64,000 nucleotides of DNA, taken from positions 6,303,501 to 6,367,500 of the forward strand of contig RHDP01000001.1 of assembly GCA_003725745.1 (NCBI GenBank). Reading direction: 5' to 3'. This document shows, piece by piece, positions 2,885 to 18,094 of this stretch. A program made the position numbers and the translations under genes. A model generated the notes under the pieces. It was not told the DNA's origin. It made no database searches and worked only from the letters and a program-made list of their open reading frames with translations. Positions within the stretch are counted from its first letter, which is position 1, and the number at the start of each line of letters is the position of its first letter. This DNA is from Streptomyces sp. I6. Its GTDB lineage: Bacteria; Actinomycetota; Actinomycetes; Streptomycetales; Streptomycetaceae.

Positions 2885-2948
2885 CCGCCAGCGGAAGACG
2901 GACGGGCCGGACTGAGCGCCGCCCGCGGTGAGGGAAGGACATCAGGAC

Positions 2949-4445
2949 ATGGCACAGGCAACAGCGGCCTCCACCGAGAGGTCGGTGCGCTACCGGTGGT
3001 GGGGGCTGGGGGTGATCGCCCTGGCTCAGCTGATGGTCATGCTGGACATGACCATCGTGAACATCGCCCTCCCGTGGGCCCAGCAGGACACCGGGATGTC
3101 GGACGCGAGCCGGCAGTGGGTGGTCACCGCCTACACCCTCGCCTTCGGTGCCCTGCTGCTGCTCGGCGGACGGGTCGGCGATCTCGTGGGCCGCAGGCGC
3201 GCCTTCGTGGCCGGCGCCGTCGGCTTCGCCGTCGCCTCGGTGGCGGGCGGCGCCGCGCCGAACGCCGAGGTGCTCGTCGGCGCCCGCGCGGCGCAGGGCG
3301 TGTTCGCCGCGCTGCTCGTGCCCTCGACCCTGGCCATGCTCGCCACCACGTTCACCGAACCGCGCGAACGCGCCAAGGCGTTCGGTGTCTTCAGCTCGGT
3401 CGCCAGCGCCGGCGGCGCCATCGGCCTGCTGGGCGGCGGCGTGATCACCGAGTACCTCGACTGGCGCTGGTGCTTCTACGTCAACGTGCCGATCGGCGCG
3501 GCCGTGGTGGCCGGGGCCTTGCTGCTGCTGCCGGCGATGCCCGCCAACCGCCAGCGCGTGGACGTCCCCGGCGCGGTGCTCTCCGCGTGCGGCATGCTCG
3601 CCCTCGTCTACGCCTTCGACCAGGCGGCGACCCACAGCTGGACCTCGCCCCGCGTCCTCGGCTGCCTCGCGGCCGCCGTGGTCCTGCTCGCCGCGTTCGG
3701 CCTCACCCAGGCCAGGGGGTCGGCTCCGCTGCTCCCACTGCGGCTGGTCGCCGACCGCAACCGGGCGGGAGCGAGCCTGACCATCGCCCTGGCCATGGTC
3801 AGCCTGTTCGGCCTGTTCCTGATCCTCACCTACCAGTTGCAGGTGGTGATGGACTTCTCGCCGCTGCGCACGGGCCTGGCGATCCTGCCGGCGACCGTGG
3901 CGACGGTGCTCACCTCCACCCAGATCGCCGCCCGGCTGGTGCCCCGCGTCCCGCTGCGCCTGCTGGTCGTGCCGGGCCTGCTCATCGCCATGCTGGGCCT
4001 GCTCAACCTCGGCCGGCTCACCCCCGACAGCTCCTACGCCTCGACGCTGATGCCCACCCAGATCCTGCTCGGCATCGGTGTCGGACTGGTGATCTCGCCG
4101 TGCATCAGCGCCGCCACCTACCGCGTGCCGCCGCAGGAGGTGGGCGTGGTGTCGGCCTTCGTCTCCACCTCTCAGCAGCTGGGCGGCTCCATCGGCACGG
4201 CCCTGCTCAACGCCATCGCCACCAGCGTGACCGCCGACCGGATCGCGGGCGGCGGCCGCGCTGAACGGGCCGTGACCGAGGCGACCGTCCACGGCTACGC
4301 CGTCGCGAGCCTGTGGGCCGCGGGCATCACCGCCCTCGCCGCCGTACTCGCCGGCCTGCTGATCACCATCGACCTGCGCAAGCCCGCCCAGGCTCCCCCG
4401 GAGCAGGCGCGGGCCACGGAAGGCGACCTGGCGCCCAGCAACTGA
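2949..4445 (+). CDS. MFS drug efflux transporter, DHA2 (14-TM) family
   Basis: The protein is 498 residues and strongly hydrophobic, a membrane proton/drug antiporter. Near the N terminus LDMTIVNIALP is the DHA2 signature. GGRVGDLVGRRRAF is the loop 2-3 motif A. GGAIGLLGGGVITEYLDWRW matches antiporter motif C followed by the conserved YVNVPIG. ATG 2949 is preferred over GTG 2928 because GGGAAGGA precedes it at good spacing. It is divergent from the TetR gene and most likely exports the cluster product. Its place in a tirandamycin cluster corresponds to trdJ. The gene is uninterrupted. Confidence 0.88.
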   Translation: MAQATAASTERSVRYRWWGLGVIALAQLMVMLDMTIVNIALPWAQQDTGMSDASRQWVVTAYTLAFGALLLLGGRVGDLVGRRRAFVAGAVGFAVASVAGGAAPNAEVLVGARAAQGVFAALLVPSTLAMLATTFTEPRERAKAFGVFSSVASAGGAIGLLGGGVITEYLDWRWCFYVNVPIGAAVVAGALLLLPAMPANRQRVDVPGAVLSACGMLALVYAFDQAATHSWTSPRVLGCLAAAVVLLAAFGLTQARGSAPLLPLRLVADRNRAGASLTIALAMVSLFGLFLILTYQLQVVMDFSPLRTGLAILPATVATVLTSTQIAARLVPRVPLRLLVVPGLLIAMLGLLNLGRLTPDSSYASTLMPTQILLGIGVGLVISPCISAATYRVPPQEVGVVSAFVSTSQQLGGSIGTALLNAIATSVTADRIAGGGRAERAVTEATVHGYAVASLWAAGITALAAVLAGLLITIDLRKPAQAPPEQARATEGDLAPSN

Positions 4446-4757: not shown

Positions 4758-5993
4758 ATGCTTCAGGATTCAGTCCCTCTGGAACTCGACGACGCGTTCA
4801 TGCAGGACCCGCACTCCGTGTACGCACGGCTCAACGCCGAAGGCTCGGCGCACCGGGTGATGATGCCTCCCGGGGTCCCCGTGTGCGGCGGACTACCGGT
4901 CTGGCTGATCACCGGCTACGAGGAGGTGCGGTCGGCGCTGGCGGACCCCCGGCTGAGCACCGACCTCAACCGGACGGATCGGCTGTTCGCGCAGAACGAG
5001 CCGGACCGCAACAAGCGTGGCGCCTTCTCCTCCGCCCTCGCCACCCACATGCTGCACTCCGACCCGCCGGACCACACCCGGCTGCGCAAGCTGGTGAACA
5101 AGGCGTTCACCAGCCGCGCCATCGAAAAGCTTCGGCCGGAGATCGAGCAGATCACCGGCGAACTGCTCGCCGCCCTGCCGGACGAGGACCCGGTGGACCT
5201 GCTGGACGCGTTCGCGTTCCCGCTGCCGATCCGGGTGATCTGCCTGCTGCTGGGCGTGCCGCTGGAGGAGCAGGAGAACTTCAAGTCCTGGTCCAAGGCG
5301 CTCGTCTCCGGCGACTCGCCTGCGGCGACCGCCGCCGCGGCGACCGCGATGATCGAGTACCTCGGCGACCTCATCGAGCGCAAGCGCCGTACGCCCACCG
5401 ACGATGTGCTCGCCGCGCTGGTCTCGGCCCGTGACGTCGACGACCGGCTCACCGAGACCGAACTGGTTTCGATGGCCTTCCTGCTGTTCATCGGGGGCCA
5501 CGAGACCACCGTCAACACCCTCGGCAACGGCACGCTGCACCTGATGCGGAACCTGGACCAGTGGGAGGCGCTGTGCCAGGACCGCTCCCTCCTGCCCGGC
5601 GCGGTCGAGGAGTTCCTGCGGTTGGAGAGCCCGCTGAAACACGCCACCTTCCGCTGCGCCACCGAGGACCTGCGCATCGGTGACACCGCGATCCCGGCTG
5701 GCGACTTCGTACTGCTGGCACTGGCCTCCGCCAACCGGGACCCCGAGCGCTTCGGGGATCCGCACACACTGGACGTCCGCAGGCCCACCGGCGGCCATGT
5801 CGCCTTCGGGCACGGCATCCACTACTGCCTCGGGGCGCCGCTGGCCAGGATGGAGGCGCAGGTGGCGTTCGGCGTGCTGCTCGACACCTTCCCCGCCATG
5901 CGGCTCGCGGTCGATCCCGAGGACATGCGGTGGCGCACCAGCACCCTCATCCGCGGGCTGCACTCACTGCCGGTGCGGCTGAACCGCCCATAG
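4758..5993 (+). CDS. trdI: cytochrome P450, multifunctional tirandamycin oxygenase (TrdI/TamI-type)
   Basis: The protein has 411 residues, the normal length for a soluble bacterial P450. It shows the I-helix oxygen-activation motif GGHETT at residues 246-251, the K-helix ExxR in EEFLRLE, and the heme-ligand loop FGHGIHYCLG with axial Cys357. ATG 4758 has CGAGGA seven bases upstream. TamI/TrdI is known to carry out iterative C10 hydroxylation, C11-C12 epoxidation and C18 hydroxylation on tirandamycin, partly alternating with the FAD oxidase TamL. Its 3' end overlaps the convergent LAL regulator gene by 47 bp. An external ferredoxin/reductase must supply electrons; none is encoded here. Confidence 0.9.
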   Translation: MLQDSVPLELDDAFMQDPHSVYARLNAEGSAHRVMMPPGVPVCGGLPVWLITGYEEVRSALADPRLSTDLNRTDRLFAQNEPDRNKRGAFSSALATHMLHSDPPDHTRLRKLVNKAFTSRAIEKLRPEIEQITGELLAALPDEDPVDLLDAFAFPLPIRVICLLLGVPLEEQENFKSWSKALVSGDSPAATAAAATAMIEYLGDLIERKRRTPTDDVLAALVSARDVDDRLTETELVSMAFLLFIGGHETTVNTLGNGTLHLMRNLDQWEALCQDRSLLPGAVEEFLRLESPLKHATFRCATEDLRIGDTAIPAGDFVLLALASANRDPERFGDPHTLDVRRPTGGHVAFGHGIHYCLGAPLARMEAQVAFGVLLDTFPAMRLAVDPEDMRWRTSTLIRGLHSLPVRLNRP

Positions 5994-8760
5994 TGTCCAG
6001 GCCCTGCGGCAGTTCGTCACGGCGGGACAGGTTGAGCTTGCGCAGGACACGTGTCATGTGCTGCTCGACCGTGCTGACCGTGATGAACAGCCGGCGGGCG
6101 ATCTCCCGGTTGGTGTGGCCCTCCGCCGCGAGGGCGGCCACCCGCAGCTCGGCCTCGGACAACACGTCATGCACCTGCTCCGAGACCTCATGCCCGGCAG
6201 CGCAGCGCCGTCCCTCGGCCGCCCGCTCCGCGTCCGGCAGCAGGTTCTGGCTGAGCGGCTCGGCATGGCACTTCTTCGCCATCCGGTAGGCACGCCGGAC
6301 GATCACCCGGGCCCGGTTGGACTGCCCGAGCAGATGGTAGACACGGCCCAGATCACCCAGGGCGTGCGCCAGCAGCCAGTCGCTGCCGGAGGCCTGGAGT
6401 TCGTCCACGGCCTCCTGCAGCGCCTGCAGCCGCTGCCGGGGCTTCATCGTCGAGGCCAGCAGGCGCAGGGCGTTGCCGTGCACCCGGGGACTGCTCTTGT
6501 GCCGGGCCAGTTCCTCCTGCAGGTAAGTGACGGCCTGGTCCGGCTCGCCCAGGCGCAGCCGGGCTTCAGCCACCCCGGTGCGCCACGGGATAAGCGTGGT
6601 GTCGCCCACTCCCCAGCTCTCCAGGGCCTTGCCGCATGCCAGGAGATCTCCGAGGGCGGCCTGAAGACGCCCGGTAGCCAGATGGAACTGGCCTCGGGAG
6701 TACAGGTAGTGCTGGCCGAAAACGGTCTGGAAGACCGCCCTGGGCACCGGGCGGCAGAGCCGGGCCCGCGCCTCGTCATACCGGCCCATGGCGGTCAGCG
6801 CGTACACCGAACTCGCCAGCGGTAGGGCGATGCTCAGCCCCCAGCCCTGCGACGACATCCGCGACAGGGCCAGGTCGCTGTGGGTCTCCGCCTCCAGCAG
6901 CCGGCCCTGCCGGATGAGGTTCGCAGCCCGTAGGGAGGACAGCAGTGCGATGTTCCGCTCGCGGGCCGCGTCCAGCAGCGTGGTGCACCACGCGTCGACC
7001 TGTTCCGTGCGGTCGGCATAGAACAGGGTCATCAGCGCCAGCGGGATGGTTTCCAGGGTCGGCGTCAGACTGGACATCTCCAATACGTGGGCGGCGCCGA
7101 CCACTGCCTCCTCCGCCTCACCGCCCCGTAGTACGACGGACAGAGCGGCGGCTGCTTGAAGGCGCGGCTGCGCTGCGATGGCCGCAGGAGTGAGCTCCTC
7201 GGTGATGTCGGGGGTCACCTCACCGAACATGCGCCGGTGGAACGGCGGGCACAGCACGGACAGCCACTGCTGCAGCGCGCGGGCCTCGGCAAGGCCCTGC
7301 TCGTCCGGCTCGTCGGCCAGTTGCCGGTCGACCAGCTGCAGCATCTCCGCCGCCTCGTCGACGTAGCCGTGCCAGACCAGATTCTTGATCAGGGACATCG
7401 CGCCGGACAGGGCCGTGAGGTGCCCGGCTTGGAGGGCCTCCTTCAGCTCCGGGAGCCGGCGCATGGCCTTGGCCGGGTCGACCTGCCAGGCGGACAGGGT
7501 GTGCTGGAACAGGATGGACGCCCGCAGAGGCCCGTCCGGGCAGATGGCGTGGGCCAGATCGAACAGCCGCATCGCCTTGGGGAACTCGTCCTGCGCGAGC
7601 GCCTCGATCGCGGCTTCCCGGAGCAGTGGGGGAGCCCAGGATTCCGCGATACCTCCCGCCGCCACGATGTGTTCGGCCACCGTGGCCGGATGCGCGCCGT
7701 TGTCGTGCAGCAGTACGGCGACCCGCCCGTGAAGCCGCGCCCGCTCCTCGGCGGAGACCTCACCTCCCAGCACGGTGTGCATCCTCGGGTGACGGAAGTC
7801 CGGTCCCGCCAGCAGGCCGGCCTGGGTCAGCTCCTGAAGGTGCCGGGTGGGCGGGTTCGTGCTGTCGCGGTCGAGCAGCACCGACAGCGCGTCCGGCCCC
7901 AGCACCGCCAGGTGCCGGGCGAGATCGGCCGCGGGCACGCTGACCCGGTGGACGCAGTCGACCACCGCGGAGTCGAACATCTCCCCGGCGACCGGCCGTA
8001 ACGCGGCCGCGCTCGTGTACGTGCCCTGCAGGGCGTTGCAGGTGTCCTCGACCAGCGCCCGCGTCAGCAGCGGGCTGCCCCCGCTCGCCGCGTGGAACTC
8101 CGCGGCGCCGGCCTCGTCGACGGGCACGCCCAGCCGCTCGGTGAGCAGCAGCCGGATGTCGCCGACGGTCAGCGGGCCGACCCGCAGCTGATGGAACCCG
8201 GGCTGCCGGGCGAACTCGGCCCGGGCGGCGGCGTACGGGGGCAGGGCCTGCGGCCGGTCTGTGAACACCGCCAGGACCCGGGAGGCGACCATACGGCGGG
8301 CGAGGTGCCCGAGGCAGCCCAGCGACTCGGGGTCGGCCTCGTGGATGTCGTCGACGGCGAGGACGAGGGGATGGTCGTCGGCCAATTCCATGACGGCCGC
8401 GCAGAATTCGTCCATGGCCTTGTCGCGTTCACCTTCCGGCGCCCGGGTGACCGCCGCAAGGCTGCGGCCGACGGCTGCGAGCGTGTCACTCGTACGCTGT
8501 GAAGCTCCTTTGAATCGCCCTGTACGCCACAGGAGTTGATGGACCACGCCCCAGGAGTTGGCGCGCTCTCGCGGGGAACAGGCCGCTCTCAGGACGAGGG
8601 AACCGGATTTCGCCGCGCTCTGGGTGAATTCGTGGAGGAGGGCGGTCTTACCGATCCCCACAGGGCCACTGACCAGGGCGATCGGACCCGCTCCGCGGTC
8701 GCGTGCGGTCAGCAGGTCATGCAATTGGGTGAGTTGTATGTCCCGTCCGACGATGGGCAT
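5947..8760 (-). CDS. trdH: LAL-type LuxR-family pathway regulator (TrdH-type)
   Basis: This is a 937-residue regulator. The N-terminal AAA-like ATPase has Walker A GPVGIGKT at residues 32-39 and Walker B LVLAVDDIHEAD. A long helical middle region follows, then a C-terminal LuxR DNA-binding domain (LSEAELRVAALAAEGHTNREIA). ATG 8760 has AGGAGC upstream. Proteins of this architecture usually activate modular PKS clusters, and trdH is recalled as a positive regulator of tirandamycin. Codon 254 (plus-strand TAA at 7999-8001) is the rare Leu codon TTA, so translation should depend on the bldA tRNA. The 3' end overlaps the P450 gene tail to tail. Confidence 0.88.
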   Translation of the reverse strand: MPIVGRDIQLTQLHDLLTARDRGAGPIALVSGPVGIGKTALLHEFTQSAAKSGSLVLRAACSPRERANSWGVVHQLLWRTGRFKGASQRTSDTLAAVGRSLAAVTRAPEGERDKAMDEFCAAVMELADDHPLVLAVDDIHEADPESLGCLGHLARRMVASRVLAVFTDRPQALPPYAAARAEFARQPGFHQLRVGPLTVGDIRLLLTERLGVPVDEAGAAEFHAASGGSPLLTRALVEDTCNALQGTYTSAAALRPVAGEMFDSAVVDCVHRVSVPAADLARHLAVLGPDALSVLLDRDSTNPPTRHLQELTQAGLLAGPDFRHPRMHTVLGGEVSAEERARLHGRVAVLLHDNGAHPATVAEHIVAAGGIAESWAPPLLREAAIEALAQDEFPKAMRLFDLAHAICPDGPLRASILFQHTLSAWQVDPAKAMRRLPELKEALQAGHLTALSGAMSLIKNLVWHGYVDEAAEMLQLVDRQLADEPDEQGLAEARALQQWLSVLCPPFHRRMFGEVTPDITEELTPAAIAAQPRLQAAAALSVVLRGGEAEEAVVGAAHVLEMSSLTPTLETIPLALMTLFYADRTEQVDAWCTTLLDAARERNIALLSSLRAANLIRQGRLLEAETHSDLALSRMSSQGWGLSIALPLASSVYALTAMGRYDEARARLCRPVPRAVFQTVFGQHYLYSRGQFHLATGRLQAALGDLLACGKALESWGVGDTTLIPWRTGVAEARLRLGEPDQAVTYLQEELARHKSSPRVHGNALRLLASTMKPRQRLQALQEAVDELQASGSDWLLAHALGDLGRVYHLLGQSNRARVIVRRAYRMAKKCHAEPLSQNLLPDAERAAEGRRCAAGHEVSEQVHDVLSEAELRVAALAAEGHTNREIARRLFITVSTVEQHMTRVLRKLNLSRRDELPQGLDTMGGSAAPAVSAARG
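7999..8001 (-). promoter_or_regulatory. TTA leucine codon in the LAL regulator (bldA control point)
   Basis: The codon reads TTA in frame within AAALRPVAG, at codon 254 counted from the start at 8760. In Streptomyces TTA is decoded only by the developmentally regulated bldA tRNA, and it is often found in cluster-situated activators. Confidence 0.75.
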
Positions 8761-8956: not shown

Positions 8957-8983
8957 TGCGGCCCGGGGGAGTCCCGGGCCGCA
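8957..8983 (-). terminator. intrinsic terminator of the HelD-like gene
   Basis: An 11-bp perfect stem (8957-8967 with 8973-8983) and 5-base loop lies 41 bp past the stop at 9025. On the minus strand it is followed by TTTTCTTT, a classical rho-independent terminator and an unusually T-rich one for this DNA. The remaining sequence up to 8760 holds the LAL gene's upstream region and no gene. Confidence 0.85.
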
Positions 8984-9024: not shown

Positions 9025-11118
9025 TCAGGCGGCGAGCGGCTCCGGCAGCGGCCGGGCGTGCAGGACGTCGAGACGGGACACCGCACGCGTCACCACGACG
9101 TACAGCCGGTGCAGTCCGCGCGGCTCGGACTCGACGATCGCGGCCGGCTCCACCACGACGACATGGTCGTACTCCAGGCCCTTGACGACCGTCGCGGGCA
9201 GCACGGTCACCCGGGCGGCCGTGCCGACCTCCTCGGCCGTCGCCGTCTCGATGCCCGCCCGGCGCAGCGCCGCCGAGGTGGCGGCGACCGCGTCGTCGGC
9301 GGCGATGACGGCGACCGACCCCTCGCGGTCGAGGGCCGCGCGGACGGCGGACACGGTGGCGGACGCCAGGTCGTCGACGGCGCTGACCGTCAACTCGCCG
9401 TCGTGGCGCAGGGAGCGGGCCGGCGGCACGTCCACGCCCAGGGCGCCCACCAGCCGGTTGGCCAGCTCCATCACCGCGGCGGGCACACGGAAGCCGGTGG
9501 TCAGCGGGACGACCGTGGCCTGCGCCTTGCCCAGGTGCGTCAGCTGCTCCTGCCAGGTCCGCGCCGACCACGGCGCCGTCGCCTGGGCCAGGTCGCCCAG
9601 CACCGTGATGGAGCCGAACGCGCTGCGCCGGGCGATCGCCCGACACTGCATCGGCGACAGGTCCTGGGCCTCGTCCACGACCACATGGCCGTAGCCCTCG
9701 GGGCGTTCGATGAGCCCCGCGACCTCGTCGAGCAGCAGCATGTCCTCGACCGACCAGGTGGCGCTCTTCTCCGACCGCGGAGGCTTCGCCCACAGCAGGG
9801 CCCGCTGCTCGGCGGCGTCGAACACCCCGTCCGCCGCAGCCTCCATCACCGCCGGATCGCTCAGCAGCGTGGCCACGACCTCCTCCGGCCGCGCGACCGG
9901 CCACGCCGCCTCCAGCAGCGCGGCGACCGGCTTCGAACGGCCGATCTTGCGCGCCCAGGTCACGCTTTTCGGGCCGGCCCGCCGCTCGGCCTGCTGCTGG
10001 ATCAGCGTGACCACCCGCGAACGCACATGCTCGCGGCCGATCCCGTACGGCGCCCCCATGCCCCGCACCTCGTCGATGACCCGTGCCAGGTCGTACGAGT
10101 CCACCCGCCAGCGGTACGAGCCGTCGGTGACCGCGATGGACTCCTCCGGGTGCCTCACCCGGGCGTACAGCGCGCGCTCAAGGACGGTGGCCATACGGTC
10201 GCCGTGCTTCAGGACGCTGACGTCCTCGGAGTCCGCCCGCCGCACTGGGTGCCGTGCGACGACGTCCTCCACCGTCAGCTGTGCGATGTCGATCTCGCCC
10301 AGCGACGGCAGCACCTCGGAGATGTAGCGCAGGAAGGTGCGGTTCGGGCCGATGATCAGCAGACCGCTGCGCTGCAACCGCTCGGGGAACGTGTAGAGGA
10401 GATATGCGGCGCGGTGCAGGCCGACGGCGGTCTTGCCGCTGCCCGGGGCGCCCTGCACACAGACCGACTCGTTCAGCTCGCTGCGGACCAGGTTGTCCTG
10501 TTCCGGCTGGATGGTGGCGACGATGTCGCGCATCGGGCCGAGGCGGGGCCGCTCGATCTCGGCGGCGACGATCGCGCTCGCCGCGTCGCCGCCGTCGTCG
10601 CCGCGGGCGTGGTCGAGGTGCTCGTCCTCAAATCCGGTGAGGTCCTCGGGAGCGCCGTGGCTCCACGGCGCCCACCCGAAGCGCCGCCGCACCGCGACGC
10701 CGCGCGGCTCCAGGGTGCTCGCCTGGTAGTAGGTGCGGGAGACCGGCGCACGCCAGTCGATCACCAGGGGCGGTGCGGCCGGGTGTTCCGAGACCCGCCT
10801 GCGGCCGATGTAGTACCGCTGCCGCCGGTGGTCCCCCGCCTCCTCGGAGTCCTCGAAGTCGAGCCGGCCGAAGAACAGCGGGCTGTCGGGCTCCTCCGCC
10901 ATCTGCCGTGCGCGGGTGCGCAGGTAGCGGCCGAGCGCCTCGGCACTCGCGCCGTCACCTGACACGTCCTCGCCCGCGACGACCTGGTACTGGGCATCGT
11001 CCACCTGCCGGGTCATCGCCTCGCGGCACACCGCGACGTACGCACGCTCCAGGGCCAGCTCGTCGTCGAGTCCGACGGCCTCCTGGGTGCCGTACGTGTC
11101 CTGGACGTGTGACGTCAT
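9025..11118 (-). CDS. HelD-family UvrD/Rep-like ATPase, probable RNA polymerase-protecting factor
   Basis: The protein has 697 residues and is superfamily I helicase-like. Walker A GAPGSGKTAVG places the Lys at about residue 229. The Walker B/DEAD-like box reads VVVDEAQDLSPMQ, followed by ITVLGDLAQAT and the C-terminal motif VVTRAVSRLDVLH. The long N-terminal charged helical region (about 1-190) before the ATPase is the HelD layout. HelD proteins bind RNA polymerase, insert into its channels and release it from nucleic acid; the actinobacterial relative HelR can displace rifamycin. Tirandamycin inhibits RNA polymerase, so self-protection is a reasonable inference. ATG 11118 has GGAAAGG upstream. 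Its cluster position corresponds to trdG. Confidence 0.82.
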   Translation of the reverse strand: MTSHVQDTYGTQEAVGLDDELALERAYVAVCREAMTRQVDDAQYQVVAGEDVSGDGASAEALGRYLRTRARQMAEEPDSPLFFGRLDFEDSEEAGDHRRQRYYIGRRRVSEHPAAPPLVIDWRAPVSRTYYQASTLEPRGVAVRRRFGWAPWSHGAPEDLTGFEDEHLDHARGDDGGDAASAIVAAEIERPRLGPMRDIVATIQPEQDNLVRSELNESVCVQGAPGSGKTAVGLHRAAYLLYTFPERLQRSGLLIIGPNRTFLRYISEVLPSLGEIDIAQLTVEDVVARHPVRRADSEDVSVLKHGDRMATVLERALYARVRHPEESIAVTDGSYRWRVDSYDLARVIDEVRGMGAPYGIGREHVRSRVVTLIQQQAERRAGPKSVTWARKIGRSKPVAALLEAAWPVARPEEVVATLLSDPAVMEAAADGVFDAAEQRALLWAKPPRSEKSATWSVEDMLLLDEVAGLIERPEGYGHVVVDEAQDLSPMQCRAIARRSAFGSITVLGDLAQATAPWSARTWQEQLTHLGKAQATVVPLTTGFRVPAAVMELANRLVGALGVDVPPARSLRHDGELTVSAVDDLASATVSAVRAALDREGSVAVIAADDAVAATSAALRRAGIETATAEEVGTAARVTVLPATVVKGLEYDHVVVVEPAAIVESEPRGLHRLYVVVTRAVSRLDVLHARPLPEPLAA

Positions 11119-11609
11119 CGATCGACCTTTCCGAAGCGACGGCCTTGCGCGCCGCCCGACGAGGCCGAACGGCGAATTCCGGGTCCCAGCATAACTGAAC
11201 CCGGTTAATAGACTGGCTGAGTTGTGTTATTGCTGGCCGGATAAAGACGGCCTACGCGCAGTGCTCGGAACGGGTGCGTACGGCTGGGCGCGACCAGCGC
11301 TCCGCGCGGCCGGTGTGGACCGGGCTGCGGCCGGAGATGCCGTGGGTCTGCTGCCGCCGGGTCGCGGTCACGTTCCGAGCGGCCGGTTGTCGCCGGGCGT
11401 GCCCAGTGCTCCGGGGGCTGTTTGCCGTCGGCCGCAACCAACGCTTCGCGGCGCCGGTGTCGCGGCCCGGGGCCACGCGTTTCTGGCGGCCGGTAGCCGC
11501 CGGGCGTGCCTAGTGCTTCGAGAGGCCGGGCACCGCCGGGTGGGACCAGCGATGCCGGCGCAGCCGGCGGCTGGTGACCGCCGGCCGCCGACAGCGCTTC
11601 GGTGGCCCG
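11119..11609. repeat. 490-bp gap with degenerate GC-rich repeats and the HelD-like gene's promoter region
   Basis: No gene is convincing here. The first 100 bp are comparatively AT-rich (11190-11245) and probably hold the promoter of the minus-strand HelD-like gene. The rest is built from diverged copies of a GGCCGG...CGCCGGGCGTGCC...AGTGCT.CG unit. The clearest pair is 11381-11413 and 11488-11520, 107 bp apart, with weaker copies around 11309 and 11525. Confidence 0.5.
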
Positions 11610-13147
11610 TTACCGCCTGGCCGCGATCAGTGCGCCCAGCACCGCCGCGTGGACCAGATGGCCGGGGGCGTACAGCTCCTTGCCGATCCACAGTGGGGGG
11701 TGGTGTTCGGCGTCCAGGCCCTGCTTCAGGAGGAAGGCGCAGCCTCGGTGCACGGCCTGGGTCGCCTCCTCGGAGCGGGCGTCGCCGTCGGCGGTGAGTT
11801 CCAGCAGGGTGCGTATCGCGTAGGCGGTCTCCTCCGGTGTGCCGTCCCAGCGGCCCCAGGAGCCGTCCTCGTGCTGCCGGTGCAGGAGCCAGTCGACGGA
11901 CCTGCCGAGGGCTTCGGCCGACGCCGGGCCGGCGTACCGGTGCAGGGCCAGGGCGCAGCGCATCGTCGCGAAGTAGGGCGAGGCGTGCCACTTGTCGGAC
12001 CAGCTGCCGTCCGGCCCCTGGCGGTCGCGCAGCCACGACGCGATCCGGGCGACGGCGTCCCGGTACCGGTCCCCCTCAGCAGGACCGTCGGCCAGGTGGC
12101 AGCCCAGCGCCTCCAGGATGTGCGCGTTGGTGGTCGTGGACGGCTCGTGCTCCGGGATGGTGGACATGAAGTGGCTGCCCGCGTCGTACTGCCACAGGTA
12201 CTCCGGCTCCTGCGGCGCCCCCAGGCGGGCCAGGGCCGTCAGGACGATCGCGCTGGTCTCCGCCTCGTACGCGAACCCCGGCGCGGTCGGCGCCCCGGAC
12301 CGGCCGACGTCACCCGGCAGCTCCTTCAGCAGCGGAGCGAGCACCTCGCGCTCCACCCCCGCCGTCGCCAGGTTTCCGGCGATCCACGCCCGCTCGTAGT
12401 ACACGATCGAGGTCATCGCGGCGACCGCGCCGGATCCCCGCTCCTGGGCCTGCCGCAGGAAGCGCACCGAGGGGTGCGCGGGGTCGGCCGGCTCCCGCGG
12501 GCCGAGCCAGGCGGCGGTCGCGGCAGCGGAACAGCCGACGACCCCGTCGACCGGCTCCATCTCGGCGGCGCCGACGGCCGCCGGGCCCACGATCTCCAGG
12601 TAGTGACCGGCGAGCGGGTTGCGCCAGGCACCCCCGCGCAGCCCACGCAGCGCCTCGTCGGTCAGCCCGTGCGGCAGCGCCAGCGGCTGCACCGGTCCGC
12701 CCCGAGGACGGCGAGCCGGGCGTTGATCCCCTCCACCAGAGCGGGGATGACCATGAAGAACACGACCGTCGACGGCACCGGCTCCTCGGCGCTGCACGCC
12801 ACCAGCGCGGCCGCCGCCGCGAGCCCCCGCCGCGCGGCCTCGACGAGCGCCGCGGGCGGCAGCGGCAACTCGCCGCCCTCCCGGCCCAGCACGGCCAGCA
12901 GCGCCTCCGTCGCGCTCAGCGTCGGCACGAGGGCGTACCCGCCGGGGCCGCCCCAACTGCCGTCGGACCGCTGCTCGTCGAGGAGATACCGGACCCGGGC
13001 GGCGTCCCCGTCCAGCCACGGGGCCAGCGACACCAGCCGGGCCGTCTCGTACACCGAGGGACCCAGCGCGCCGGTCGGGTCGTCCAGCACCCGCTCGACC
13101 AGCTCGGCGACGAGCCTGTCGAAGTCCACGTCCGTGGGCGCGCTCAC
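11610..13147 (-). CDS. class II terpene cyclase-like protein without the DxDD acid (one apparent frameshift)
   Basis: GTG 13147 overlaps the stop of the preceding GH16 gene (GTGA), so the two are translationally coupled. The frame breaks at a CCCC run at 12700-12703; adding one base restores 512 residues. The fold is the double alpha-barrel of class II diterpene cyclases. Evidence is DEQRSDGSWGGPGGY near the N terminus, the family hallmark STTTNAHILEALG in the centre, and QW-like repeats DGSWSDKW and DGSWGRWDGTPEETAYA toward the C terminus. At the catalytic DxDD position the protein reads YEAETSA, so the protonating Asp is missing. A TrdF-type position suggests a role on the polyketide, possibly the bicyclic ketal, but that is inference. 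Confidence 0.75.
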
Positions 13148-13974
13148 GCGGTGAGCTCTTCGGAGACGGTGATGCTGTCGACGAGCAGCGACGACGGCAG
13201 CGTCGCCGGGTCGGGGTCGCCCGGCAGGACCGGGCCGCCGGGGCTGCCGATAATGATCGCCAGACAGAAGTACACCGGCTGGTCGAACAGCCAGCCCTTC
13301 GGAGTGGTGTCCTGCGGGGTCAGCTTCAGGTACTCGCGGCCGTCCAGGTACCAGGTGATCGAGTCGGGGCCGCGCCGCCAGACCGCCGAGTAGGTGTGGA
13401 AGTCCGCGCTGAGCGGGCTGCCGTCCTCCGTGGTCGTACGGGCGCCCATGCCCAGGGACGGGATCTGGTGGCACTCGGGGGAGTGGACGGCACCCCACAC
13501 CGAGTCCGGCTCGGAGCCGAGCGCCTCCAGGACGTCGATCTCCCCGGCCCGGTACCACGCCTGCACCGGGTCCTCGTCGCCCCGGTGCCGCAACTGCGTG
13601 CCCCAGGCCCACAGCGCGCAGTCCAGGCCCGGACCCGCTGCGGTCTTCACCCGGGCGTCCAGGCGCAGCGCGCCGCCGGACCGCGGCACGAAGTCCTCGC
13701 GCCGGGTCTCCAGCCACGCCGCCCGGTACTCCCCGTCCTCGTGCGTGGCGGTGATCCGCAGGTGCCCGGCGCCGTCGAGGCCGACGTTCGCGGGGTCGTC
13801 CGTGTGGAACTCGATGCCGGCGCCGAACGGCTGCCCGGTGACGACCTGCCACAGGGCGGGGTGGGGCGGGGACCCGGCCGGGCCCTCGAACGTGTCCTGC
13901 CACAGGACCTTCCACGATGGCGGCGCGGTCGCGGCGGCCGGGGCGGTGGCGTGCTTCTGGTTCACGGTCTCCAT
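13144..13974 (-). CDS. trdE: GH16-family protein recruited for polyketide dehydration (TrdE-type)
   Basis: The 276-residue protein has a laminarinase/GH16 jelly-roll sequence. The catalytic ExDxxE signature is intact (GEIDVLEAL), followed by the WYLDGREY strand typical of the family. There is no signal peptide, so it stays in the cytosol, unusual for a GH16 enzyme. TrdE of the tirandamycin pathway is a GH16-family enzyme reported to install the delta-11,12 double bond, formally eliminating the C11 hydroxyl set by KR2. The gene lies 23 bp past the NRPS stop and overlaps the terpene-cyclase-like start by four bases. It is uninterrupted. Confidence 0.85.
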   Translation of the reverse strand: METVNQKHATAPAAATAPPSWKVLWQDTFEGPAGSPPHPALWQVVTGQPFGAGIEFHTDDPANVGLDGAGHLRITATHEDGEYRAAWLETRREDFVPRSGGALRLDARVKTAAGPGLDCALWAWGTQLRHRGDEDPVQAWYRAGEIDVLEALGSEPDSVWGAVHSPECHQIPSLGMGARTTTEDGSPLSADFHTYSAVWRRGPDSITWYLDGREYLKLTPQDTTPKGWLFDQPVYFCLAIIIGSPGGPVLPGDPDPATLPSSLLVDSITVSEELTA

Positions 13975-13997: not shown

Positions 13998-16900
13998 TCA
14001 GTTGCCCGGGGCCGACGGTGCGGCGGCGTCCGGATCGAGATGCTCGGCCATGGCGAGCGGGGTGGGATGGGCGAACAGGTCGGCCAGGCGCACAGGCACA
14101 CCCAGCGTCTTCTCGATGCGCTGCACGAGCTGCGCGCCGAGCAGCGAATGCCCGCCGCTGTCGAAGAAGTTGGCGTGCGGGCCGAGGTCGGTCCGGCCGA
14201 GCGTGCTCTGCCACAGGGCGAGCAGCCGCCCGGCCGTCCCCGACTGCGCCTCGGGCGAGGCCTGCGCCGATTCCGCGGCCGCACTGCGCTCGGAGCGGCG
14301 CTGCTCGGCGAGGCGGGTCAGCGCGAGATGGTCCCGCTTCTCGTTGGCGGTGGTCGGCAGCGACTCCAGCACGACGATCTCCTGGGGTACGGTGGCGGAG
14401 GGCAGCAGGGACCGGGCATGGGCCGTCAGCCCGGCGGTGTCCACCTCGGCCGCACCGTCCCCTCCCTCCCCTTCTTCCGCGCCGTGTGCCGGTTCCACGA
14501 ACGCGACCAGGGCGGCGTCCGGCCCGCCGCGCCCCACCACGACGACGGCGACGTCCCGTACGTCCGGACGGTCGAGCAGCACCGCCTCCACCTCGCCCAG
14601 TTCGATCCGGTGGCCGCGCAGCTTGATCTGGCGGTCGGTGCGGCCCAGCAGCTCGACGCTGCCGTCGGGCCGCAGCCGGGCCAGGTCGCCGGTGCGGTAG
14701 TGGCGCCCGTACGCGGGATGGTCGCGGAAGCGGTCCGCCGTCAGTTCGGGGCGGTTGTGGTAGCCCAGCGCGACGCCCGACCCGGCGATGCACAGCTCGC
14801 CCTGCACACCGACCGGCAGCTCCCGGCCGTCCGGGTCGACGACGAACACCTGGGTGTTGGCGATCGGACGGCCCACGTCCACGCGGACCACCTCGTCCGG
14901 CACCGGCCCCGAGGTGGACCAGATGGTCGTCTCGGAGGGGCCGTACACATTGAGCAGTGAGCCGCCCGAGGCGGCCAGCGTGCGGGCCAGCGCCGGTGGC
15001 AGCGGCTCCCCGCCGCAGACCAGGCGCCGGCCGGCGAGCTGCCCGTCCGCCGCGTCGGCGACGACCCGCCAGGTCGTCGGGGTGGCCTGCACGACGCCGA
15101 CGTCGTGCGCGACGACCTCGGCGAGCAGGGCGCGGCCGTCGGTGCGGGCCTCGTCGGAGGCCACGACCAGCCGTCCGCCGCACACCAGCGGCAGGAACAG
15201 CTCCAGGGCGGAGATGTCGAAGGCGAAGGTCGTCAGCCACAGCACGGCGTCGTCCGCCGTGACCTTCAGCTCCTCGGCGAAGTGCTGGACCACGTTGGCG
15301 AGGCTGCGGTGGCCGACCAGGGTGCCCTTCGGCTTCCCCGTCGATCCGGACGTGTAGATCAGGTAGGCGCAGGAGTCCGGATCCGGGCCGCCCGCACCGG
15401 GGTCCGGCAGCGGGCCGGAGCCGTCCCGCGCGAGCGGCTCCAGCGCAAGCACACGCGCCCGGACCCCCTCGGGCAGCTCCACGCCCGGCGCCGTGAGCAC
15501 GGCCTGCGCGCCGGAGTCCTCCAGGACGTACGCCAGGCGCTGCACGGGGTGCTCCGGATCGACGGGCAGATACACCGCTCCGGCCAGCCACACCCCGAGG
15601 GCCGCGGCCGCGAGTTCGGGACCCCGGGGCGCGGCCAGCGCGACGATGTCACCGGCCCTCACCCCGGCGTCCGCCAAGACGTCCCTGGTGTCCTCGGCGG
15701 CCCGCCACAGCTCGGCGTACGTCGTGCTGCGACCGTCGCCCACGACGGCCGGCGCGGACGGCGTCAGCGCCACCCGCTCCCGCACCGCCGCGAGCACGCT
15801 GGGCGGATCCACCGGGCGCGCGGTGTCGTTGCTCGCGGCCAGCACCGCGAGGTCGGAAGGCCCGGACAGCGGCAGTTCGCCCATCGGCCGGTCCGGCCCC
15901 TCCGCGGCCGCGAGCAGCAGCGCCTCGAAGCGTTCCAGCAGCCCCTGTACGTCGGCCCGGTCCAGCACCTGCGTGTAGTACGCGGCCCGGACGGTCACCT
16001 TGTCCGCCGAGGACAGGAAGAAGAACTCCAGGTCGAACTTGCTGAAGCCGTTCTCCACCGGGAGCCTGCGGGCCGTGGTGTCGCCGAGGGGGAAGCTCGT
16101 ACGGCCGTCGTCCGGAACGTAGTTGAACAGATGGCGGAAGACGGTGTTGCGCCAGGAGGCGCCGCCGTCCCTGCGCAGTTCCGGCAGCAGGACGTCGACC
16201 GGCACATCGGCGTGGGCGACCGCCCCGAGGAACGCGACGCGGGCGGTCCGCACCAGGTCACGGAAGCCGCCGCCGAGGTCGACGGGTATGCGCAGCGGCA
16301 GGGTGTTGACGTGATAGCCGACGGCCCTGGACGCCTCGCGCGCCCGGACGTTGACCGGGGTGCCCACCACCAGGTCGGGACCCGCGCCGTGCCGGGCCAG
16401 CAGCAGGCCATACGCGGCCAGCAGCACCACCGCCTCCGGCGCGCGCAGCTCCTTCTGCAGCCGGCGCAGCACCTCGGCCGCCCGCGGGGACAGGTCGGCC
16501 GTGATCTGGTCACCGGTGAGGGTCGGCTCGGGAAGATCCTCGCTGCCACACCACAGGGCGAGGCCCGCGGCGTCGGCCCCGGCCAGCTGCCCGCGCCAGT
16601 ACTCCACGGCAGCCGCGCGGGGAGAGGGCTCCCGGTACGGCGGCTGCGCGGCCAGCAGCTCCGCGGGTGGCGCGGCACCGGCCGCGAGCGCCGTGTACCC
16701 GGCGGTGAACTCCTCCAGCAGGACCGCGCCGGAGACCGTGTCGAAGACCAGGTGGTGGACGGCGAGACAGAACGCGTCGCCGTCCGCGCACCTCACCCGC
16801 GCGGCCCGCACCAGCGGCCGCCCGTCGATGTCGAAGGGACGCGCGATGAACTCACCGACGACAGCGGCCACTTCACCCGGCTCCGCCGCCAGCTGCTCGA

Positions 16901-17162
16901 CCTCGATCCGCAGGGCGGCGGGGTCGAGCACCTCCTTGATGAGGCCCGCCTGCTCCTGCCGGAACACCGTGCGCAGCGCCTCATGCCGGCGCAGCAGCAG
17001 ATCGACCGTGCCCTGGAGCGCCGGGCCGAGCAGCGGCCCGTCGGCCTGAAGGGCGACGGAGAGGTTGTTGACCCCCTTGACGGGCACGAGCTCGTCCAGG
17101 AGCCAGAGGGCGTGCTCCTTGCTGTCGGCCGGGCGGGACCGGACTTCCGTTGCTTCTGGCAT
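13998..17162 (-). CDS. trdD: single-module NRPS, C-A-PCP, predicted glycine-loading (TrdD-type)
   Basis: The protein is 1054 residues. The condensation domain carries HHLVFDT (His136-His137; the usual Gly after Asp is Thr). The adenylation domain has YTSGSTGKPKG, VYGPSETT, YRTGDLARL and GRTDRQIKLRGHRIELGE. The carrier protein has FFDSGGHSLLG with phosphopantetheine Ser1006. My reading of the specificity residues is D-I-L-T-V-G-V-I-W, close to the glycine code DILQLGLIW. It would accept the polyketide from the last PKS carrier protein and make a beta-ketoacyl-glycyl thioester. There is no thioesterase domain, so release must be in trans, most likely by the Dieckmann cyclase gene just upstream. 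No frameshift. Confidence 0.88.
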   Translation of the reverse strand: MPEATEVRSRPADSKEHALWLLDELVPVKGVNNLSVALQADGPLLGPALQGTVDLLLRRHEALRTVFRQEQAGLIKEVLDPAALRIEVEQLAAEPGEVAAVVGEFIARPFDIDGRPLVRAARVRCADGDAFCLAVHHLVFDTVSGAVLLEEFTAGYTALAAGAAPPAELLAAQPPYREPSPRAAAVEYWRGQLAGADAAGLALWCGSEDLPEPTLTGDQITADLSPRAAEVLRRLQKELRAPEAVVLLAAYGLLLARHGAGPDLVVGTPVNVRAREASRAVGYHVNTLPLRIPVDLGGGFRDLVRTARVAFLGAVAHADVPVDVLLPELRRDGGASWRNTVFRHLFNYVPDDGRTSFPLGDTTARRLPVENGFSKFDLEFFFLSSADKVTVRAAYYTQVLDRADVQGLLERFEALLLAAAEGPDRPMGELPLSGPSDLAVLAASNDTARPVDPPSVLAAVRERVALTPSAPAVVGDGRSTTYAELWRAAEDTRDVLADAGVRAGDIVALAAPRGPELAAAALGVWLAGAVYLPVDPEHPVQRLAYVLEDSGAQAVLTAPGVELPEGVRARVLALEPLARDGSGPLPDPGAGGPDPDSCAYLIYTSGSTGKPKGTLVGHRSLANVVQHFAEELKVTADDAVLWLTTFAFDISALELFLPLVCGGRLVVASDEARTDGRALLAEVVAHDVGVVQATPTTWRVVADAADGQLAGRRLVCGGEPLPPALARTLAASGGSLLNVYGPSETTIWSTSGPVPDEVVRVDVGRPIANTQVFVVDPDGRELPVGVQGELCIAGSGVALGYHNRPELTADRFRDHPAYGRHYRTGDLARLRPDGSVELLGRTDRQIKLRGHRIELGEVEAVLLDRPDVRDVAVVVVGRGGPDAALVAFVEPAHGAEEGEGGDGAAEVDTAGLTAHARSLLPSATVPQEIVVLESLPTTANEKRDHLALTRLAEQRRSERSAAAESAQASPEAQSGTAGRLLALWQSTLGRTDLGPHANFFDSGGHSLLGAQLVQRIEKTLGVPVRLADLFAHPTPLAMAEHLDPDAAAPSAPGN

Positions 17163-17216
17163 TCCAACCGTTCCGTGGGGTCGCGGGAATTCGCGGCGGG
17201 GCGTACGTACGGGATA

Positions 17217-17263
17217 CGCGCGTACGGGACTTGTGCGTACGGGACTTGTGCGTACGGGACTTC
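17217..17263. repeat. 15-bp tandem repeat before the NRPS gene
   Basis: Three near-exact copies of a unit like GTGCGTACGGGACTT (first copy GCGCGTACGGGACTT), preceded by a diverged copy, fill part of the 101-bp gap between the Dieckmann cyclase stop and the NRPS start. Confidence 0.8.
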
Positions 17264-18094
17264 TCAGGCGGGCCTGTCCGCGCCCAGCAGCTCGGTCACC
17301 GTGCGGGTGACACCCGGGTCGCGCAGCAGGTCGACGTGCGGGACGTCGACGCGCAGTTCCCGGCCCACGGCGATGTCCTGGCCGGCCGCCCGGGAGCCGT
17401 TCAGACCGCTCGTGGGCGACGAGGACGTGACGACGACGGCCTCCCGCCACGCGGGCAGCGGGTCGATGTCTGCGGCCGCGATCAGATAGCCGACGAACGA
17501 CGCGAAGACCGCGGTGATCTCCTCCGTCCGCCTGTCGTCCAGCTCCAGCCGGTCGAAGGCGGGCTTGGCGGTACGCCGGTACACGTCGAGGAGTTCGGCG
17601 CCCAGCGCGGCCATCGTCGTGTGCTGCTCGTGCGCCCGCCGCGCCTCGTCCGCCGCCTGCGCGGTCTCCTCGGCACTCAGCAGGGCGGACATGGAGTCGA
17701 GGACCTTGTGGAACTGCGAGTACAGGGTCAGCGGGCCGGACTGCTCGGGGTCGAACAGCACCAGCGCGGGCGCCTGTTCCTGCCGGGCGGCGAGGCGCTG
17801 CGCGATCGCGCCCGCGTAGACGCCGCCGACACAGAAGCCGAACACCGCGCGGACCGGGCGGCCGTCGGCCGCCACCTCCTCCAGCCACCGCTCGACGGGA
17901 TCGGCATCGCCGGCACCGGTCCCGGCCTCCTGGGGAATCGTCTCCCAGATCGAGCAGGGCAGCAGGTCACCCAGACCCGAGGCCAGATCGGTGAAGCGGC
18001 CCTCGGCCCGGCCGGTGGCGTCGAAGTCCACGGCGAGCACGAGCTCCTGCGCGTCCGCGTTGCCGAGAACCCGCCACGTCTGCGGATCGGTCAT
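17264..18094 (-). CDS. trdC: Dieckmann cyclase, alpha/beta-hydrolase fold with Cys triad (TrdC-type)
   Basis: The 276-residue protein has an alpha/beta-hydrolase nucleophile elbow that reads GFCVGG, with Cys88 in place of the usual Ser. A candidate acid is Asp115 (LVLFDPEQ), 27 residues later, and a candidate base is His253 (VDVPHVDLLRDPGV) near the C terminus. TrdC/NcmC-type Dieckmann cyclases are a Cys-His-Asp hydrolase-like family that release tetramate and pyridone polyketides from the NRPS carrier by C-C bond formation. I chose ATG 18094. An in-frame start at 18256 would add a low-complexity Ser/Pro/Asn leader encoded by tandem repeats and is unlikely. It sits directly before the NRPS gene, its partner. 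Confidence 0.85.
   Translation of the reverse strand: MTDPQTWRVLGNADAQELVLAVDFDATGRAEGRFTDLASGLGDLLPCSIWETIPQEAGTGAGDADPVERWLEEVAADGRPVRAVFGFCVGGVYAGAIAQRLAARQEQAPALVLFDPEQSGPLTLYSQFHKVLDSMSALLSAEETAQAADEARRAHEQHTTMAALGAELLDVYRRTAKPAFDRLELDDRRTEEITAVFASFVGYLIAAADIDPLPAWREAVVVTSSSPTSGLNGSRAAGQDIAVGRELRVDVPHVDLLRDPGVTRTVTELLGADRPA

Follow-up and report, generated by a model that had tools for sequence, protein, structure and literature searches.

A TetR-linked HelD gene in a tirandamycin-type cluster of Streptomyces sp. I6 as a candidate RNA polymerase protection factor

The helD gene lies at 9025–11118 on the minus strand of the window, a 64-kb stretch of DNA from Streptomyces sp. I6 ('own genome' hereafter means that of this strain), where an ORF check found an open frame of 697 aa. 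Frame, profiles, tree and motifs place its product in a TetR-linked subfamily of HelD motor proteins without a primary-channel (PCh) loop. The preliminary description had placed helD beside a regulator, and the next gene downstream is indeed of the LuxR/LAL type, with AAA_16, TPR and GerE domains (5947–8760, minus strand). Further along are a cytochrome P450 gene (4569–5993, plus strand), the gene of an EmrB/DHA2-type MFS drug exporter (2928–4445, plus strand) and, divergent from it, the gene of a TrdK/NcmK-like TetR regulator (2156–2800, minus strand), the module partner of helD. On the other side, all on the minus strand, come genes for a TamF/TrdF-like protein with a weak squalene-hopene cyclase match (11610–13019) and a TamE/TrdE-type GH16 protein, our marker for this type of cluster (13144–13974), an NRPS frame with C-A-PCP domains (13998–17888), a frame with a thioesterase domain (18287–19420) and a FAD-dependent BBE oxidoreductase gene, which we take to be of the TamL/TrdL type (55390–56892); a 4'-phosphopantetheinyl transferase gene (56999–57661) is on the plus strand. 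By gene order, helD presumably stands at the TrdG/TamG position. The gene names reportedly come from Mo 2011, which is reported to list TrdG as unknown.

The tirandamycin gene set (TamE/TrdE-type protein, NRPS, P450, LuxR, TetR, exporter, FAD oxidase and PPTase) is present, and over the stretch compared (the genes on L091) the cluster genes share 92.6–99.0% identity with their counterparts in S. composti SBST2-5, a strain from which the isolation of tirandamycin B is described (PMC10038987). Judged by its genes, the cluster is tirandamycin-type.

The assignment of the protein to the HelD family, with a UvrD-like ATPase, has been upheld. By sequence it matches HelD of Mycobacterium smegmatis (PDB 6yxu) at E 5.5e-75 and that of Bacillus subtilis (6wvk) at E 6.7e-31, Pfam finds UvrD_N, and four HelD/HelR models of NCBIfam match, although all four under their cut-offs. 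The motor motifs are intact: Walker A GAPGSGKT at residue 223, DEAQD at 482, GDLAQ at 508 and VKGLEYD at 645. These are the UvrD-like SF1 motifs of class II of the HelD superfamily, and the class II arrangement of an N-terminal arm region followed by DWRAP (residues 121–125, aligning with 6yxu) is present as well. An AlphaFold model, built from six close sequences, had a mean pLDDT of 43 and was set aside. A strong hairpin (8957–8983, minus strand; folding energy −33.3 kcal/mol, z −4.3) lies 41 nt past the helD stop and is followed by TTTTCTTT, and the claim that the gene has its own intrinsic terminator therefore holds. A generic terminator scan missed this hairpin; a near copy of it is also found 3' of helD in genome G157.

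A likeness to HelR as the mechanism, also proposed in the preliminary description, did not survive comparison. Between the flanking anchors of the PCh loop the cluster protein has 35 aa, as against 111–114 in the large HelR-like type from the same genomes, and there is a gap of ~64 residues relative to 6yxu. The acidic loop tip of HelR is absent with the loop. The NCBIfam HelR models score 336.4 against a cut-off of 1100 (NF041258, HelR_2) and 282.9 against 750 (NF041254), although the large paralogue in the own genome (L003), at 669.2, is also under the NCBIfam HelR score. Membership of HelR was rejected on the missing loop and the low scores: HelR expels rifamycin by means of its primary-channel loop, and a protein that has none is not a HelR.

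The own genome has further HelD genes elsewhere, the best being 49% identical to the cluster HelD. In the tree of 52 sequences that the preliminary description had called for, the cluster HelD falls in a separate clade with support of 100/100, and conserved HelD paralogues coexist with it in genomes carrying the clade. Since other copies exist and the clade is separate from the conserved ones, the gene is neither the sole HelD of its genome nor the housekeeping orthologue, a candidate identity that was rejected. Two features expected of a self-resistance gene were sought and found: distinctness from the housekeeping copy and conservation across the clusters for this class of drug. As to the latter, TamE at ≥59% identity occurs in four of 392 Streptomyces genomes, and all four have a clade HelD (≥74%) inside the cluster; six of the remaining 388 have a clade HelD at that level without an intact TamE. 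The chance of such co-occurrence is 2e-7 if the genomes are treated as independent, which they are not. In a scan of named genomes, HelD was inside the cluster in six of seven with TamE, this set and the genus sample overlapping by two genomes; in S. lacrimifluminis the 13-kb contig with TamE, TetR and exporter carries no HelD. At E 1e-30 TamE matches 249 of the 392 genomes, but the listed matches beyond the four are at most 41% identical and were regarded as GH16 proteins of other kinds. A TamE search for the Bu-2313/nocamycin cluster in one other actinomycete family, run without a positive control, gave 0/341. The gene accompanies tetramate clusters of both the tirandamycin and the streptolydigin type, and 176 of the 392 Streptomyces genomes have a match to the HelD subfamily at E ≤1e-200.

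Of the 27 best-matching Streptomyces loci, 26 have a gene for a TrdK-like TetR no more than 1.5 kb from helD. The 27 are L012–L038, with one streptolydigin-type cluster (L017) and three remnant loci among them; the tirandamycin-type L010 and L011, where tetR is ~6 kb from helD, were left out of this count. In 23 held-out loci TetR is within 1.5 kb in 21, and the same 21 have an operator scoring 25–41 bit; L190 and L192 have a clade HelD with neither. L035 has the operator with no TetR nearby. Each search contributed its best matches, 30 loci at most, and the TetR counts accordingly apply to the closest homologues and not to all 176 genomes. No TetR was found within 1.5 kb of other HelD paralogues in 18 loci, some with short flanks, nor in the 13 of them refetched with flanks of 4.6–7.6 kb. 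Twelve of these 13 have no site scoring above 5.5, and the exception, L208 from S. lydicus, carries one of 18.8 bit at a distance of 2.1 kb; the small L002-type paralogue has neither TetR nor operator. The remaining genes around tetR–helD pairs are mostly unrelated between loci, and the pair also occurs away from tirandamycin-type clusters. On this evidence from gene neighbourhood, the helD clade behaves as a two-gene module with TetR.

Matrix searches predict a double palindromic operator in the helD promoter (11197–11224, 79–106 nt 5' of the ATG), adjoined by a −10-like TATGCT picked out by eye (11188–11193, minus strand), and a double operator in two overlapping copies between tetR and the exporter gene (2822–2866). 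The consensus from which the search began was drawn up by eye, with the window sequences already known. Of 21 loci, L023 and L026 were dropped for more than three mismatches; the first matrix comprised the remaining 19 sites, those of L021 and L024 not lying directly before helD. With this matrix, trained on non-cluster loci, the top two sites in the window are the tetR/exporter promoter (23.2) and the helD promoter (13.1), and the best score of the first matrix on 40 random 64-kb sequences was 8.5. A second matrix, from sites picked by the first in 21 of the 23 held-out loci (L190 and L192 were dropped), gave the helD site 15.2 against 14.8 for the best of 60 random sequences, a thin margin. 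In tirandamycin-type clusters the helD operator is the weaker one, with three mismatches to the consensus. An IUPAC operator scan of the own genome at ≤2 mismatches gave 2 + 2 matches, which are two overlapping registers of one place on both strands, against 3 + 3 for the reversed control. A promoter scan at helD found nothing and a repeat search upstream of it nothing useful. helD and the exporter gene are predicted to share a TetR operator.

Decayed clusters show which genes are kept. In G157 full-length tetR and helD stand beside fragments of the NRPS, TamE, TamF and LuxR genes, and in G274 and G092 both are full length while only a piece of the exporter gene is left of the cluster. It is helD, and not the exporter gene, that is kept intact with tetR. 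The dN/dS of helD is 0.14–0.16 in the remnant loci and 0.12–0.16 for intact tirandamycin-type clusters; against the window, solo copies give 0.22–0.27 and streptolydigin-type copies 0.31–0.32. The gene is under purifying selection where the cluster has been lost.

In the RNA polymerase of the producers, the STL1 core of RpoB has the common form GFEV in all five tirandamycin-type genomes, the residues concerned being presumably F545/E546 in E. coli numbering, and the bridge-helix D occurs in 23/23 sequences compared. Within the segments compared, these five genomes have no change in the STL1 core, bridge helix or trigger loop, and the differences they do have are conservative and also found in non-producers; modification of RpoB at these three places was rejected as the producers' route. 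The own genome and S. composti have in common an S-to-T change just past STL2, so 'unmodified' applies only to the core. The two streptolydigin-type genomes have STL1 GLDV and a Q-to-L change in the trigger loop; we take NRRL ISP-5461 to be the streptolydigin strain. No second rpoB was found in the own genome, and an odd VPDRD stretch in its RpoB, at the junction of two reading frames in a broken assembly, was set aside as an artefact.

The reading we favour, and think probably correct, is that helD encodes the effector of a module under TetR control, which protects RNA polymerase and so confers self-immunity in the tirandamycin cluster. The TrdK-like TetR would bind the double palindromes, located by sequence, in the helD and tetR/exporter promoters, and tirandamycin or a late intermediate would release it, so that exporter and HelD would be made together. 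By analogy with the HelD family, the protein would grip the polymerase with its N-terminal secondary-channel arm and clamp-opening ATPase body, break up the drug-stalled elongation complex and open the bridge-helix/trigger-loop pocket, letting the drug leave. The primary-channel loop by which HelR counters rifamycin would have no part in this, the protein having none. Away from the cluster, the pair would act as a self-contained, inducible resistance unit. Target protection rather than DNA repair, as the preliminary description had it, thus gains from the comparative evidence (cluster linkage, operator, remnants and RpoB) and loses its HelR mechanism. Occupancy of the secondary channel would be insufficient, because GreA and GreB, which also enter there, are reported to raise inhibition by streptolydigin (PMC10274647). 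Class II arms are described in one account as too short to clear nucleic acids, a task performed by the PCh loop (PMC8655204). That the cluster HelD lacks this loop and has an N-terminal region only moderately longer is an observation against the favoured reading. Also against it count the S. lacrimifluminis contig without HelD, the S-to-T change past STL2, the weaker helD operator of tirandamycin-type clusters, the own-genome operator scan that did not exceed its control, the paralogue site at L208, and the loci with a clade HelD but no TetR or operator (L190, L192) or with an operator but no TetR (L035). No report of this role for HelD was found in the open-access literature searched.

Among the nearest known parallels is HelR (S. 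venezuelae SVEN_6029, M. abscessus MAB_3189c), a rifamycin-displacing class II protein of the same sequence family, also actinobacterial and tied to an antibiotic that inhibits RNA polymerase, the target expected here. The cluster HelD differs in the drug concerned and the site of that drug, and in having no PCh loop and a predicted TetR operator upstream. M. smegmatis HelD, of class II, is the best solved relative, with matched stretches in the same order, but positions ~452–515 of the 6yxu chain have no counterpart; its loop tip is given as E484/D485 (PMC10719064), which falls in the missing stretch provided that chain and residue numbering coincide. B. subtilis HelD, of class I, also has no PCh loop, and its N-terminal arm is reported to protect the polymerase from rifampicin (PMC12802891). 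Arm and clamp opening are, by this analogy, a plausible route of protection common to both, although the cluster HelD is closer in sequence to class II, has a shorter region before DWRAP than class I as aligned, and is linked to TetR rather than to the two-promoter system of B. subtilis. The small class II Streptomyces isoforms SCO4195, SCO4316, SVEN_3939 and SVEN_4127, given as 665–681 aa (PMC8655204, section 3.5), are of the same size class, and some may belong to the TetR–HelD module. In the nocamycin cluster, a third tetramate cluster, the 713-aa 'AAA family ATPase' NcmJ (KY287782) is listed beside NcmK, a TrdK-like TetR (PMC5466765, Table 3). Likened by description, size and kind of partner, NcmJ–NcmK is probably the same pair.

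HelD could instead be a general recycling factor for stalled polymerase, serving genome maintenance with an incidental tie to TetR and no action on the drug. Such recycling is described as an established role of the family (PMC10719064, PMC8655204), the missing PCh loop is the best known drug-expelling part, and recycling alone would help because streptolydigin is reported to prolong pauses (PMC10274647). However, the same genomes already have conserved HelD paralogues, which lack the TetR link, and survival beside dead cluster genes together with a predicted operator in common with the exporter point to drug defence; we regard pure recycling as unlikely.

Polymerase mutations and efflux might provide the self-resistance, leaving HelD a minor or redundant passenger. 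In S. lydicus rpoB is reported to carry resistance (Sanchez-Hidalgo 2010), the exporter stands under the same predicted operator, and the streptolydigin-type changes in RpoB and the S-to-T change past STL2 fit this explanation; because the streptolydigin-type genomes have HelD as well as a changed RpoB, HelD may be auxiliary. The unchanged pocket segments of the five tirandamycin-type genomes, and remnant loci that hold on to helD and not the exporter, make it quite improbable. That HelD regulates production through polymerase availability at cluster promoters, the TetR–HelD pair being a production switch, would suit its position next to a LuxR-type regulator and the rise in tirandamycin titre on loss of TrdK (PMC6521150, citing Mo 2011), but the pair is also found outside tirandamycin-type clusters, and selection on it persists where the cluster has gone, which leaves this very improbable.

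Returning to the protection module, a wider proposal can be put forward only tentatively: that TetR–HelD is a mobile module, widely distributed, which senses and confers resistance to bridge-helix/trigger-loop inhibitors, a second HelD resistance line beside HelR without the PCh loop. Close to half of the Streptomyces genomes sampled would have it (176/392 by HelD score, the TetR link having been examined for the best-matching loci); tirandamycin- and streptolydigin-type clusters would have captured it, and on cluster decay it would stay behind as an immunity gene. Tirandamycin producers keep the common STL1 core in their polymerase, and the favoured reading offers a mechanism by which they could protect themselves; it also assigns a candidate function to a HelD subfamily of that breadth. 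It predicts an operator and regulon, and sets a loop-independent HelD line apart from HelR. On the wider proposal, finding TetR–HelD in a cluster would point to a product that inhibits the polymerase. The favoured reading would itself supply a resistance-gene marker for mining new RNA polymerase inhibitors, and it suggests that resistance to this class of drug may already be common in soil actinomycetes.

The helD gene (9025-11118, minus strand) is an open frame of 697 aa. The nearest solved relatives of its product in sequence comparison are HelD of M. smegmatis (pdb:6yxu; E 5.5e-75) and of B. subtilis (pdb:6wvk; E 6.7e-31), and with all motor motifs intact its assignment to the HelD family stands. 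So does the separate terminator claimed for it, a hairpin with a T-tract 3' of the stop codon (8957-8983; folding z -4.3). The cluster contains genes for a TetR regulator, an EmrB-type exporter, a P450, a LuxR/LAL regulator, a TamF-like protein, a TamE-like GH16 protein, an NRPS, a thioesterase, a BBE oxidase and a PPTase, as well as PKS frames. Because S. composti SBST2-5, reported as a source of tirandamycin B (PMC10038987), has the same genes, with identities of 92.6-99.0% across the compared stretch, the window cluster is by gene content of the tirandamycin type. A piece of an IS4/5-type transposase (DUF4096; 1153-1557) lies at its left edge near tetR. Against three other loci (L069, L090 and L091) the TamF-like frame (11610-13019) aligns as two pieces, offset by one base where they join near residue 107; either this frame or theirs is therefore shifted.

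The genome has six other places matching HelD: a full-length HelD 49% identical to the window protein (L002), two more distant HelD genes at 33-36% (L003/L007 and L004/L006), and three lesser matches, of which L005 is a partial frame of 340 aa, L008 a short fragment and L009 a weak match to a helicase. Four named relatives also have several HelD genes apiece. When 52 HelD proteins are placed in a tree, the copies from tirandamycin-type and streptolydigin-type clusters, from remnant loci and from solo tetR-helD pairs away from clusters form one clade of 13 (100/100), nested in a clade of 34 (100/100). Outside the latter fall the L002-type small paralogue, present in 5/5 genomes sampled, the large HelR-like proteins (L003) and two other types. 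Among the distant types the tree program flagged long-branch joins, one of them between the L004 type and the 39 small proteins; the split between the helD clade and the other types is untouched by this. The preliminary description had asked whether helD groups apart from the housekeeping copy or is that copy, alone in its genome; the paralogues and the separate, fully supported clades reject the second reading and bear out the first. Three HelD fragments, L008 (G000:C1:6286499-6286609), L005 (G000:C1:1366834-1367667) and L105 (S. composti), listed as a 49-aa frame, a 340-aa partial and a 282-aa piece at 62-64% identity, are likely remnants of lost copies; neither a TrdK-like TetR nor an operator occurs in the stretches fetched around them. 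Near full-length relatives (62-63%) occur in Embleya on NZ_CP108777.1 and NZ_CP108785.1, multi-megabase replicons listed as plasmids; no gene is listed at these places, where the gene table is incomplete.

The association of this clade with tetramate clusters is visible in the genome sequences. Of 392 Streptomyces genomes, four have the marker TamE at an identity of at least 59%, and in all four a clade HelD (74-100%) lies inside the cluster. Six of the remaining 388 have a clade HelD but no intact TamE; G157, one of the six, preserves 64 residues of TamE. Among named genomes, scanning gave TamE alignments at eight loci in seven genomes. The cluster includes a HelD, at 74-99% identity, in six of the seven: S. 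griseoflavus, Streptomyces sp. NBRC 110035 (TP-A0873), S. composti, S. violaceorubidus, S. actuosus and S. lydicus NRRL ISP-5461. The two samples overlap, L090 and L092 agreeing with G316 and G283 in identity values. In the remaining genome, that of S. lacrimifluminis, a 13-kb contig carries TamE, TetR and exporter without HelD, and a 67% HelD adjoins a TetR elsewhere. The nocamycin cluster is a lead toward what may be the same pair: NcmJ, a 713-aa 'AAA family ATPase', is listed beside a TrdK-like TetR (PMC5466765, Table 3). In the streptolydigin-type clusters (L077/L078 of G137; L095/L096 of S. lydicus), the resistance genes lie between two TamE-like genes, at identities of about 73-76% and 59-62%.

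By gene order, tetR (2156-2800, minus strand, in the window) and helD form a two-gene module. In 26 of the 27 best-matching loci (L012-L038), helD has a gene for a TrdK-like TetR no more than 1.5 kb away, a count that a profile reproduces; the exception, L035, has an operator of 31.1 bits and no such TetR within 6 kb. A class-wide scan, matching 26/394 genomes and 5/137 genera, supplied a held-out set in which TetR is near helD at 21 of 23 newly fetched loci, six of the 21 outside Streptomyces. The other two (L190 and L192, from one non-Streptomyces genus) encode full-length homologues at 61% identity with neither TetR nor operator nearby, reflecting either other regulation or the basal state. 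Near other HelD paralogues the TetR was found at 0/18 loci and, since some of these were short, 13 were re-examined with flanks of 4.6-7.6 kb per side, again finding none. In a gene-by-gene comparison of fourteen 20-kb stretches, the recurrent genes are tetR and helD (L078, which continues L077, holds neither), and the remaining flanks are largely unrelated except in related pairs such as L080/L081 and for a few genes common to L072 and L079.

The module also shares a predicted operator, two palindromic boxes 17 bp apart 5' of helD with a consensus near TAACTcGGTTAAAatTTTAACCgAGTTA, present too in streptolydigin-type, remnant and solo loci. A matrix from 19 sites in 21 non-cluster loci places its best match in the 64-kb window at the tetR/exporter promoter (2839-2866, 23.2 bits; overlapping copy at 2822) and its second at the helD promoter (11197-11224, 13.1 bits), against a top score of 8.5 among 40 random 64-kb sequences. 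A second matrix, from 21 held-out loci, finds the same places, scoring 18.6 and 15.2 where the maximum over 60 random sequences is 14.8. Operator scores are 25-41 bits at the 21 held-out loci with TetR and at most 2.2 near 18 HelD paralogues. Of wider stretches around 13 paralogues, 12 score no more than 5.5; the other holds an 18.8-bit site (L208:10810; S. lydicus, G392:C12) 2.1 kb from another HelD paralogue, either chance or a further regulon member. Counting against the operator, the helD site is weak in tirandamycin-type clusters, and an IUPAC scan of the genome with two mismatches found only the tetR/exporter site, not above the reversed control. In locus L025 four boxes stand in tandem, by eye, at about 17-bp spacing between tetR and helD. 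A rise in tirandamycin titre upon trdK inactivation is reported (PMC6521150, citing Mo 2011), consistent with TrdK as a repressor, which would bind these boxes and may sense the drug.

The target polymerase of tirandamycin-type producers looks ordinary. The core of RpoB segment STL1, at the streptolydigin site, is GFEV in 5/5 tirandamycin-type genomes (21/23 overall); the two streptolydigin-type genomes, S. lydicus and G137, have GLDV there and in common a trigger-loop Q-to-L change; the bridge-helix aspartate, described as marking sensitive polymerases (PMC3957892), is present in 23/23. An S-to-T change just past STL2 is confined, among the 23, to the genome of the window (L148) and S. composti (L137), being absent from the other three tirandamycin-type genomes. 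The single rpoB locus of the former (G000:C1:4010705-4014011) is broken into frames, and the S. composti sequence therefore gives the more secure reading. Such splitting of an essential gene indicates indel errors in the assembly, and the broken PKS frames (13998-55184) are probably of the same kind.

How HelD might act on this target is constrained by its sequence. About 64 residues of M. smegmatis HelD have no counterpart in the window protein; between two conserved anchors the latter, like the TetR-linked clade members and the small paralogue compared, has 35 residues, whereas the large HelR-like type has 111-114, including an acidic stretch. The missing segment is the primary-channel loop, the tip of which is reported as needed for rifamycin resistance (PMC10719064). 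As this loop is absent, a HelR-type mechanism is unlikely, and the parallel drawn with HelR finds no support at the level of mechanism. B. subtilis HelD, which also lacks the loop, is reported to protect polymerase from rifampicin via its N-terminal arm (PMC12802891). Clade members partly conserve the presumed arm tip of the window protein (around GEDVSGDGASAEALG), at least 90% of the 30 sequences compared fitting VS..GA.AE.LG; the AlphaFold model is too poor for arm placement. Since the streptolydigin site is described as unreachable through the channels of the elongation complex (PMC10274647), a direct route would be for HelD to bind polymerase, open the clamp and dismantle the stalled complex, so releasing the drug. 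Against this route, Gre factors, acting through the same channel, are reported to strengthen streptolydigin (PMC10274647), and the arms of class II proteins are reported to lack the length for nucleic-acid clearance (PMC8655204).

The module outlives its cluster. What G157 keeps of the cluster is fragments of NRPS (113 residues), TamE (64), TamF (183) and LuxR (72), beside full-length tetR and helD. G274 and G092 also retain both genes at full length, with a piece of the exporter gene as the sole cluster trace, so we infer a cluster origin for these two loci; the G274 helD falls among intact-cluster copies in the tree (100/99 and 99/89). Both genes at the three loci are 91-96% identical to the window copies, and helD dN/dS, measured against the window copy, comes to 0.14, 0.16 and 0.16, compared with 0.12-0.16 for intact tirandamycin-type clusters. 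A gene serving production only would be expected to decay with its cluster, and a protective gene would not. Self-protection by polymerase rescue is, on balance, the probable role of HelD.
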